Source: Deltaproteobacteria bacterium (GTDB lineage: Bacteria; Desulfobacterota_B; Binatia; Bin18). From it: a stretch of DNA of 10,655 nucleotides. Below, piece after piece: positions 3,341 to 10,638 of the stretch; the first letter of the stretch is position 1; each line of letters opens with the position of its first letter. The stretch covers positions 1 to 10,655 of the forward strand of contig JAAXHF010000048.1 of assembly GCA_012271025.1 (NCBI GenBank). The letters are read 5' to 3'. A model generated the notes under the pieces. That model saw nothing but the letters and a program-made list of their open reading frames with translations. It was not told where the DNA came from and ran no database searches. The translations under genes were made by a program, and so were the position numbers.

Positions 3341-4423
<1,083 letters not shown>

Positions 4424-8650: not shown

Positions 8651-9067
8651 ATGTCAGACTATACCAAGCCCCTTCCTCGTCCGACCGTCTCCTCGCAGCC
8701 GTTCTGGGATGCCGCCAAACGCCACGAGCTTCAGATCCAGCGCTGCCAGAGCTGTGGCGCGGTGCTGTTCTACCCGCGCGAGGTGTGCTCCGAGTGTCTG
8801 TCCTCAGATCTGGGCTGGATACGGGCGTCCGGCCGGGGCACGGTGTATTCCTACACCATTGCCCAGGCGCCGACCCATCCGACGTTCAGAGAGGACGTGC
8901 CGTATGTGGTGGCGATTGTCGAGCTGGACGAGGGCCCGCGTCTGACGACCAATATCGTTGGCTGCGACCCTGCGGCCATGCGGATAGGCATGCCGGTCGT
9001 CGCCACCTATGATGACGTGACGCCGGACAGGACGCTGGTCAAGTTCCGGCCGGCCGACTCGGTTTAG
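8651..9067 (+). CDS. DUF35 OB-fold protein with N-terminal zinc ribbon
   Basis: A 138-aa protein with the two-part layout of the DUF35 family: a rubredoxin-like zinc ribbon with Cys32, Cys35, Cys46 and Cys49 (CQSC and CSEC), then an OB fold from about residue 57 to the end (GRGTVYSYTI, PYVVAIVELDEG, RLTTNIVGC, GMPVVATYDDV). In studied cases DUF35 proteins bind acyl-CoA and pair with thiolase-like subunits, as with the Ltp2 aldolase and in the archaeal thiolase/HMG-CoA synthase complex. The start follows the thiolase stop by 9 nt, with TAGGAGGAG serving as stop codon plus Shine-Dalgarno. The TAG stop overlaps the stop of the convergent 73-aa gene by 4 nt. A complex with the thiolase-like protein encoded just upstream is a strong inference. 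Confidence 0.93.
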   Translation: MSDYTKPLPRPTVSSQPFWDAAKRHELQIQRCQSCGAVLFYPREVCSECLSSDLGWIRASGRGTVYSYTIAQAPTHPTFREDVPYVVAIVELDEGPRLTTNIVGCDPAAMRIGMPVVATYDDVTPDRTLVKFRPADSV

Positions 9068-9285
9068 TCGGGCGGTTTGAGGCTGCGGATACGGCGAACA
9101 GGGGGATGACCGGGCGTGTCGTCGATAAAGGTCAGGTGGGCCGAATCGCAGGCCGGGCAGATGACCAGCGTGCCGTAGCGCTCGTCTTCGACCATCGGCG
9201 GCCAGCGCCCGTCCGCAGGTTCCCCGTAGTTGCTCATGGTGTATAACTTTTCGGCGCACATCAGACAGTGCTGGGCTTTGGCCAT
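9064..9285 (-). CDS. Small double-CxxC (zinc-ribbon-like) protein, 73 aa
   Basis: Not a family I can name. The protein has two CxxC pairs, Cys7/Cys10 (HCLMC) and Cys43/Cys46 (ICPACD), about 33 residues apart, the usual spacing for a single zinc ribbon. The tail is basic and Pro-rich (PGHPPVRRIRSLKPPD). There is no signal peptide, so it is probably cytoplasmic. The start is chosen at 9285 because AGGAGG (9291-9296 on the minus strand) lies 5 nt upstream. A further in-frame ATG at 9321 lacks such a site and would place the Shine-Dalgarno inside the gene. It is convergent with the DUF35 gene, their stop codons sharing the bases TTAG at 9064-9067, and divergent from the selenoperoxiredoxin gene 73 bp away. 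A redox or metal role beside the peroxiredoxin is possible but unproven. Confidence 0.75.
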   Translation of the reverse strand: MAKAQHCLMCAEKLYTMSNYGEPADGRWPPMVEDERYGTLVICPACDSAHLTFIDDTPGHPPVRRIRSLKPPD

Positions 9286-9290
9286 GATGT

Positions 9291-9296
9291 CCTCCT
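9291..9296 (-). promoter_or_regulatory. Shine-Dalgarno AGGAGG fixing the start of the 73-aa gene
   Basis: CCTCCT on the plus strand reads AGGAGG on the minus strand, 5 nt before the ATG at 9285. It decides against the longer in-frame start at 9321. Confidence 0.8.
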
Positions 9297-9358
9297 GGGC
9301 TATGGTCGATCCTAGGGCCACGGCCGGGCCAAGTCCAGCCAGTCAGAAAGGACACGCT

Positions 9359-9868
9359 ATGTACACAGGATTACAGGTGGTGATCGGCGCGCTGCTGGCG
9401 CTGACGCTGAGCGGCCCGGCCTGGGCTCAGGCCGAGGTCGGCAGCCCGGCTCCGGATTTTTGTTTGCCGTCCAGCGACGACAGCCAGGTGTGCCTCAAGG
9501 ACTTTCGGGACAAGCACAACGTCGTCCTGCTGTTCTATGTCCTCGACTTCACCTCGGGTTGAACCCTGCAACTGTCCTCCGGTCAGGGGGCGGAAAAAAC
9601 ACTCAACGCCAAAGTCCTCGGCATCAGCACCAACCACGGCGCGTCCCAGAAGGTCTTTACCCAGCAGCTGAAGCTCGATTATCCCCTGCTGAGCGCCTTT
9701 GCCGCGTCCGAGGTGATTCGTGACTATACCGGCTGGCTGGACGAAGAAAAACGGCTCGGCAACCGCGCCTATGTCATTATCGACAAGCAGGGCATCGTCC
9801 GCTTCAAGAAAGTCGGGGAGATGGTACCGGTCGAAGACCTCGAACAGGTTCTGGCCGGCCTCGAATAG
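9359..9868 (+). CDS. Exported selenocysteine-containing peroxiredoxin (AhpC/TSA family), UGA-recoded
   Basis: A 169-codon frame with one internal TGA at 9560-9562 (residue 68). Residues 1-24 form a signal peptide (core VVIGALLALTL, cut near AWA|QA), so the mature protein is periplasmic. A peroxiredoxin fold follows: GSPAPDF, VVLLFYVLDF, LGISTNHG, DYPLLSAF, and GNRAYVIIDKQG with the conserved Arg136. The TGA falls in LDFTSG-TGA-TLQL, exactly where peroxiredoxins have the peroxidatic Cys (TxxC), so selenocysteine is predicted there. The frame stays open for 101 codons to TAG at 9866. No Cys follows residue 68. Cys35 and Cys45 lie before it, so resolution must use one of these or an outside thiol. 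The usual active-site Pro is Val61. AAAGGA precedes the ATG by 7 nt. The alternative is a nonsense mutation, but the SECIS-like hairpin argues against it. Selenoperoxiredoxins are known, for example PrxU of Eubacterium acidaminophilum. Confidence 0.87.
9560..9562 (+). other. In-frame TGA predicted to encode selenocysteine (Sec68)
   Basis: This TGA replaces the peroxidatic cysteine codon. TGA ends six other genes in the window (amidohydrolase, SDR, hemB, cobyrinate synthase, alpha/beta hydrolase, PDZ protein), so the codon is not reassigned genome-wide. Recoding must therefore be local. Confidence 0.85.
9572..9593 (+). promoter_or_regulatory. Bacterial SECIS element (selenocysteine insertion hairpin)
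   Basis: Just 3' of the TGA the mRNA can fold as a lower stem CUG/CGG (9572-9574 with 9591-9593, one G-U pair), a bulged U (9575), an upper stem CCUCC/GGGGG (9576-9580 with 9586-9590, one U-G pair) and a loop GGUCA (9581-9585). With the U of UGA as 1, loop G23 and U24 fall where SelB contacts the fdhF SECIS of E. coli, and the bulged U is at 16 against 17 there. A rival pairing, CCCUG with CAGGG (9564-9568, 9584-9588), is possible but lacks these features. Confidence 0.8.
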
Positions 9869-9936: not shown

Positions 9937-10638
9937 ATGAAAATATACGCCTTCGTGCTTGCGCTGTGCATCTGGCCCCTCGTCCCGCACGCCCAGGAGA
10001 GCCAGCCTACCCCAGCCACGGCCGAACCGGTTACGCTCGACGCCCCACCCGCTCTCGAACAGGCTGTCGCCCAGCCAGCGGCGACCGAGGCGTCCGGGGC
10101 TCCGTCTCAGGTCATACTCGGCCAGGCCACGGATCACGCCTCAGACCAGACCCAGCCCGCCCCCGACGCTCTGCCGCCAGACTTCTGGGCTGCTGCTGAA
10201 AGCGAGCAGCCGGCCGAGCAGCGGACTTATCTGGGCGCCCTGTACGCGACACCCGAACACGAGGGGCTGCAAGGCGTTCAAGTCCTGAGCGTCATCCCCG
10301 GCAGCCCGGCCGCCCGAGCCGGATTTATCGGCGCCAACACGCCTCAGCAGCAGGGCACCAACTGGTTCCGGGTCGCCGTCCTGGCCTTGTCCATGTCGCC
10401 GGCCGGCGCCTTTGCCATTCCGCTGACCATCGCCCACCACGTGTACACAAACCGGCACGCGCCGGCTGACCTGCCCGGAGATTTGATCGTGGCGATTGAC
10501 GACACCCCCATTCCCGACGCCCAGGCTTTTTCCCGAATCCTGGGCTCCTACGAACCCGGCGACCGGGTCACCTTCACCTTTATCCGGGCCGGAAAACCCA
10601 TGCAGACCGCCGTCACCCTCGAGTCCGAGCCGCTCTGA
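9937..10638 (+). CDS. Exported PDZ-domain protein with an insertion in the PDZ fold
   Basis: A 233-aa protein with a signal peptide at about residues 1-19 (cut near HAQ|ES), a Pro/Ala/Gln-rich and probably unstructured stretch up to about 95, and one C-terminal PDZ domain of the DegP/HtrA kind. The PDZ part starts at YLGALY and shows VQVLSVIPGSPAARAGF (about 114-130), then resumes with LPGDLIVAIDDTPI, the peptide-binding GD...I element, and ends with GDRVTFTFIRAGK. Between these halves lies about 40 residues not expected in a PDZ domain, including a hydrophobic run (FRVAVLALSMSPAGAFAIPL) long enough to touch or span a membrane. No protease domain is present, so it is likely a periplasmic binding or adaptor protein. 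GGAGGGGGAG lies before the ATG. It is 68 bp downstream of the selenoperoxiredoxin. The stop is TGA. Confidence 0.85.
   Translation: MKIYAFVLALCIWPLVPHAQESQPTPATAEPVTLDAPPALEQAVAQPAATEASGAPSQVILGQATDHASDQTQPAPDALPPDFWAAAESEQPAEQRTYLGALYATPEHEGLQGVQVLSVIPGSPAARAGFIGANTPQQQGTNWFRVAVLALSMSPAGAFAIPLTIAHHVYTNRHAPADLPGDLIVAIDDTPIPDAQAFSRILGSYEPGDRVTFTFIRAGKPMQTAVTLESEPL

Follow-up and report, generated by a model that had tools for sequence, protein, structure and literature searches.

TxxU peroxiredoxins are a listed selenoprotein family (PMC9312934, PMC13188914, PMC1794560, PMC1088965, PMC1914089). The Sec peroxiredoxin of Eubacterium acidaminophilum is cited in PMC9312934, and the motif PxxxTxxU has been termed highly conserved (PMC13188914). 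The periplasmic [NiFeSe] hydrogenase, which appears in a table in PMC1914089, is an exported selenoprotein. The terms 'periplasm' and 'signal peptide' appear nowhere in the main text of PMC13188914, PMC1088965 or PMC1794560. In the literature searched, nothing was found that links Binatota or Binatia to selenoproteins; Binatota and selenocysteine were encountered together only via the title of a reference. The locus described here is hence partly known in kind, and its novelty is smaller than the initial annotation implied.

The window, i.e. the whole stretch of DNA analysed (10,655 nucleotides), harbours at positions 9359–9868 a gene which very probably encodes an exported peroxiredoxin with UGA68 decoded as Sec by the standard bacterial route. 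The features of the locus are:

9359..9868, + strand: gene of the predicted exported Sec peroxiredoxin, 169 aa if UGA is translated as Sec (frame reading, Pfam, homologues)
9359..9433, + strand: predicted signal peptide, residues 1–25, MYTGLQVVIGALLALTLSGPAWAQA, no twin arginine (hydropathy and sequence)
9461..9463, + strand: codon of Cys35, which co-occurs with Cys45 (row comparison)
9491..9493, + strand: codon of Cys45, on the N-terminal beta-hairpin strand opposite Cys35 (row comparison and model)
9539..9541, + strand: codon of Val61, at the site of Pro in PxxxTxxC/U of other peroxiredoxins (row comparison)
9560..9562, + strand: in-frame TGA, putative Sec68, peroxidatic residue of TxxU (frame and relatives)
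9572..9593, + strand: candidate SECIS hairpin with a stem of 8 bp, a single bulged nucleotide and the loop GGUCA (9581–9585; folding, covariation)
9937..10638, + strand: PDZ-domain protein with signal peptide, 233 aa, 68 nt downstream (Pfam, loci)

The frame runs from ATG 9359 to TAG 9866–9868 and comprises 169 residues once TGA 9560–9562 is read as U, with 101 open codons past U68, as the initial annotation had stated. Its placement of the TGA at the catalytic position also holds, since U68 in T65-S-G-U68 coincides with the peroxidatic Cys of AhpC/TSA-type peroxiredoxins. The Pfam domain AhpC-TSA (PF00578) was found with 4e-22 at residues 27–149, spanning the TGA, and AAAGGA, which resembles a ribosome-binding site, was read directly from the sequence at 9347–9352. 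An Rfam scan of the window gave nothing at the gathering score. The initial annotation was silent on Val61, which replaces the motif Pro, and on the two Cys residues ahead of Sec. Upstream, a divergently oriented gene (9064–9321, − strand) encodes an 85-aa CxxC...CxxC protein without a Pfam match, which is conserved at 73–96% identity in 11 genomes of the same family; in G004 and G006 the copies lie some kb from the peroxiredoxin gene.

The protein shares with the TxxU peroxiredoxin family the AhpC/TSA domain, the placement of the putative Sec behind T-x-x as peroxidatic residue and a SECIS within the coding region. Judged by published descriptions, it is set apart by its signal peptide and by Val or Ile in place of the motif Pro, and the window's family is further set apart by a Cys pair ahead of Sec and an exported PDZ-domain neighbour. 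Identity with the PrxU equivalog was rejected, as the score against the NCBIfam model (NF040737) was 30.8 bits, which is below the curated cut-off of 270. The predicted model (with Cys in place of Sec, mean pLDDT 88.3) has chains of the 1-Cys peroxiredoxin AhpE of Mycobacterium tuberculosis as its best solved structural neighbours (best TM-score by query length 0.80). AhpE is also among the closest proteins by sequence and, like the window protein, fits a type lacking a Cys past the catalytic residue, but it carries Cys where the window protein has the putative Sec and is only about 28–29% identical. We take AhpE to have the motif Pro and neither a signal peptide nor such a Cys pair, partly on the basis of a partial alignment. 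The UxxC peroxiredoxin-like thiol:disulfide oxidoreductase selenoproteins have the same fold and are likewise encoded with TGA, and some relatives of this type (L070, L073, L088, L089, L092 and L093) share a hydrophobic N-terminus with the window protein. They differ in that Sec is part of W-U-P-[YF]-C and in forming a separate branch of the tree.

The claim of export is backed by the signal peptides. A signal-peptide-like N-terminus without twin arginine was observed by hydropathy and sequence in all 14 clade rows examined (of 18), and in the window protein cleavage would follow AQA. Exported selenoproteins such as [NiFeSe] hydrogenase are Tat-exported metalloenzymes. The window protein resembles them as a Sec protein predicted to lie outside the cytoplasm, but its plain signal peptide lacks RR, and export would apparently proceed via the general secretion pathway.

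A tree was built from 103 rows, of which 32 were chosen from the 120 proteins listed in a database search. It places the window protein in a supported clade of 18 rows (99/95), all with TGA at the Sec position. Long branches (L106, L105, L091 and others) are all located outside this clade. At least five changes between Sec and Cys are forced by well-supported branches, and the fewest changes that account for the whole tree are eight. What sets the clade apart, from comparison of its sequences, is the signal peptide, the absence of the motif Pro, the lack of any Cys past Sec and the fact that no Cys orthologue was found. Other Sec peroxiredoxin types in the relatives are AhpE-like, PrxQ-like TxxU and W-U-P-[YF]-C, and many genomes have more than one; they were observed in L067–L106, which are 40 of the 42 further TGA-peroxiredoxin matches listed.

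The window protein has no Cys past Sec68, as claimed initially, and the same applies to 18/18 clade rows (L099 ends at a contig end); the resolving Cys of 2-Cys peroxiredoxins (PrxQ/BCP, Prx1) is thus missing. Because of this lack, we propose that an external thiol would reduce the selenenic acid of Sec68. As to possible reductants, sulfide is reported to act on Prx6-type enzymes and, at a far lower rate, on AhpE (PMC12697902). Both residue 35 and residue 45 are Cys in 20 of the 103 rows, comprising the 12 same-family sequences and 8 rows of one Cys-peroxiredoxin branch, and not a single row (0/103) has exactly one Cys at these sites. In the model, strands 35–38 and 43–45 are the two strands of one hairpin, from which it follows that C35 and C45 probably form a cross-strand structural disulfide. 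It is rather unlikely, in our view, that the pair is resolving instead, with one Cys attacking Sec68-SeOH and the resulting disulfide being reduced by an exported thioredoxin-like protein. Such a role would fit the absence of further Cys columns from the mature protein and the presence of C35 and C45 in 12/12 same-family sequences. However, clade members of family f2 have Sec with Glu/Lys at residues 35/45 (6/6), and the same Cys pair is present in the 8 Cys-peroxiredoxins of the other branch, so the pair does not track Sec chemistry. A structural disulfide is therefore the most likely role of Cys35/Cys45. A Glu/Lys salt bridge as its replacement in f2 was also considered and rejected, as there is no rule: position 45 is Ser in L119, Met in L122 and Arg in L123.

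The motif T/SxxC(U) and the later Arg are both present in the window protein (T65-x-x-U68 and Arg136). Arg136 is found in 44/44 rows of alignment A1 and in 17/18 clade rows, the remaining row ending at a contig end. We propose that Sec68 would react with peroxide within the envelope, going from Se- to SeOH, aided by Thr65 and the conserved Arg136. The peroxiredoxin Pro, on the other hand, is missing from the clade: its site is occupied by V (9), I (8) or G (1) in 18/18 clade rows, whereas Pro is present in 76 of the 85 other rows, which are all 76 T/SxxC/U rows, and the nine UxxC-type rows have R. Given this loss, the activity could be unlike that of an ordinary peroxiredoxin. An envelope Sec protein that is no peroxidase, e.g. 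a thiol/selenol sensor or a disulfide-handling enzyme, would agree with the replacement of the Pro and with S, N or D at the Thr65 site in four of the 18 clade rows. We nevertheless consider it unlikely, as the window protein keeps Thr65 and Arg136 and as its fold and best structural neighbours are those of AhpE peroxidases.

The protein database search yielded 139 matches, of which 120 were listed; admitted lengths were 0.55–1.75 times the query, which excludes shorter pieces and fusions. Among the listed proteins, 86 span residue 68 and carry Cys there without exception (86/86), with identities of 47.7% at most. The 34 listed proteins with ≥ 50% identity all lie to one side of residue 68 (0/34 span it), which bears out the expectation that standard gene calling splits the gene: 32 are downstream of the site, 25 of these match from residue 70, and in the other two the match stops precisely at residue 67. 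Taken together, these values indicate that the split annotation is real, and no Cys orthologue of the clade was found among the 120 listed proteins or in the class genomes searched.

A hairpin that would act as SECIS is located within the coding region past the UGA. GGUC starts 18 nt past the UGA, which is the spacing of the E. coli fdhF SECIS, and both elements have GGUC in the loop and a bulged nucleotide in the stem, while stem sequence and host protein differ. The best fold of the window hairpin has −11.3 kcal/mol and a loop of 5 nt. It lies within the published bSECIS criteria (four in PMC13188914), which specify a loop of 3–9 nt, a stem of 4–16 bp, G in the first two loop positions, 16–37 nt from the UGA and an energy ≤ −7.5 kcal/mol. 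Equally stable synonymous recodings were obtained in 11/100 cases for the window, 3/100 for L003, 7/100 for L012 and 1/100 for L013 (four tested), and a plain shuffle of 61 nt of the window was not significant (z −0.79; 45/200 shuffles fold as well).

The alignment comprises 17 of the Sec-peroxiredoxins, namely clade sequences whose loop lies at +18. It excludes f2 members with the loop at +21 (e.g. L014, L015, L020, L124, L127) and the other Sec types, and also L001, which repeats the window in that stretch, and L010, which repeats L009. Of the cells, 84.0% are paired compared to 70.3% after shuffling, 18 cells are changed on both sides compared to 6.6, and the covariation is 0.354 compared to 0.123 (each 0/500 as high), in a shuffle test that related rows inflate. 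Slid controls reached a covariation of ≤ 0.176, a comparison in which the structure, drawn by eye from the same 17 sequences, is favoured. The weaker of the five measures were pairs changed on both sides (4, a count reached in 20/500 shuffles) and further pair types (9, reached in 132/500). Members of genus g2 (L005–L011) have a weaker stem at +18. In the proposed mechanism, SelB with Sec-tRNA(UCA) would recognise the GGUCA-loop hairpin 18 nt downstream and Sec would be inserted at UGA68.

The Sec machinery, which the initial annotation suggested looking for in the source genome, was checked in the genomes of relatives. There, selA, selB and selD are above the cut-offs in 11/11 same-family genomes bearing the orthologue, and tRNA-Sec (≥ 65 bits) is present in 9/11; G001 and G015, both draft MAGs, are the two without. 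Over all 58 relatives, selA was found in 44, selB in 43, selD in 44 and tRNA-Sec at ≥ 65 bits in 39, the latter in a search with strict filters and only 60 candidates scored per genome. The cut-off of RF01852 was rejected as a criterion for tRNA-Sec: it was passed in 5/14 control genomes and fails to separate tRNA-Sec from long tRNAs, so only matches of ≥ 65 bits were counted. The 49.2-bit RF01852 match of G001, the nearest of the genomes compared (42% of the window's sampled 31-letter words shared), is a tRNA-Ser according to ARAGORN. The same program found tRNA-SeC(tca) in G002, G008 (two copies), G016 and G044, which confirms all three scanned same-family genomes with a strong match (G002, G008, G016). 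The two copies of G008 (L108:2799–2894 and 3798–3878) are about 1 kb apart, the second scoring 52.9 bits; multiple tRNA-Sec genes per genome have been described (PMC5330540). The SelD gene has one in-frame TGA in 8/9 same-family genomes outside genus g2, G012 being without a match above the cut-off. In the seven g2 members, SelD is found in an open frame of 759–775 aa, which suggests a fusion.

Among the matches listed, TGA-peroxiredoxins occur in at least 25 of the 44 SelA-bearing genomes and in at least 1 of the 14 that lack it (Fisher p 0.0014; counts of 25, 19, 1 and 13 made by hand from the matches listed, so that the number of genomes lacking TGA-peroxiredoxins may be too high). The sole exception lacking SelA is G017 of f2, with three TGA-peroxiredoxins among the matches listed. 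At 100% completeness, this genome has none of SelA, SelB, SelD and tRNA-Sec above the cut-offs, and a search with a close query also failed to find SelA. The other genomes of this genus, G143, G144 and G145, have SelA, and G144 and G145 also tRNA-Sec. As SelA and tRNA-Sec are about 3.3 kb apart in G144, one assembly gap would account for G017, and such a gap is the likely cause of its lack of SelA. A flanking-gene search for G017 led to a large flanking family. Of 11 f2 genomes, 10 have SelA above the cut-off and seven have tRNA-Sec, those without the latter being G017, G143, G137 and G141.

Readthrough and stop reassignment occur in other organisms. Decoding of the UGA as another amino acid (by a suppressor tRNA, as Trp or as Cys) would have such precedents, and the deliberate production of two polypeptides would agree with the 25 of 34 close database proteins that match from residue 70. 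Both are very unlikely here. TGA is an ordinary stop in the window, as noted initially, since it ends 6/12 gene-like ORFs whose stops were read (the peroxiredoxin among the 12), and the relatives have the Sec pathway together with a SECIS showing compensatory changes. The UGA lies exactly at the catalytic Cys of all 86 listed spanning homologues, and split proteins are the unavoidable output of a gene caller that reads TGA as stop.

Decoding as Sec is also in line with the conservation of the codon. TGA is present at the identical codon in 12/12 same-family sequences (window included). Of the 58 relatives searched, 16 are same-family genomes, 11 of which match at E 3.3e-53 or better, every match with one internal TGA; G005, G007, G009, G010 and G012 gave no match at E ≤ 1e-20. 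Among 148 genomes of the class, 24 yielded 32 matches at E ≤ 1e-20, some of which belong to a neighbouring Sec type (L125, L126, L133, L134), and all 32 have an in-frame TGA (31 with one, 1 with two). The match with two is G140:C141:11577–12059. Comparison of eight pairs resulted in dN/dS values of 0.07–0.13 past the TGA (4 pairs with finite dS) and 0.06–0.28 ahead of it (6 pairs), the remaining pairs being saturated. These values indicate purifying selection on both halves of the gene, and the frame stays open in the relatives compared, a check suggested by the initial annotation. A nonsense mutation, pseudogene or sequencing error in a former Cys codon, which the window alone could not exclude as TGA is one base from TGC and TGT, is practically dismissed by the identical TGA in all 12 same-family sequences, by its presence in all 32 class matches and by the selection past it.

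The PDZ-domain gene follows the peroxiredoxin gene in 11/11 same-family loci and had no match in the f2 loci examined. The model of its protein has a mean pLDDT of 41.6 and was set aside. Binding of the PDZ protein to the peroxiredoxin C-terminus was considered and is unlikely, because the C-termini differ by eye (LAGLE, LASLE, LAGLD, AELK, KSAR).

Tentatively, the clade may represent a selenium-committed peroxiredoxin subfamily of Binatota, so far seen in two families, with no known Cys form and with the active-site Pro lost. It would be secreted by the general pathway, work in an oxidising envelope and depend on an exported thiol, either of low molecular weight or a protein; in the window's family it would have a PDZ partner of its own. 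As 34/34 listed proteins at ≥ 50% identity are cut pieces, annotation overlooks this predicted envelope peroxidase of Binatota. Low oxygen was reported to favour Sec forms in a 2006 survey (PMC1794560); a clade that keeps Sec, has no Cys form found and apparently acts outside the cytoplasm would be a good test of why Sec persists. Loss of a Pro that is invariant across the 76 other T/SxxC/U rows compared raises the question whether selenium chemistry may relax a constraint to which the sulfur active site is subject.
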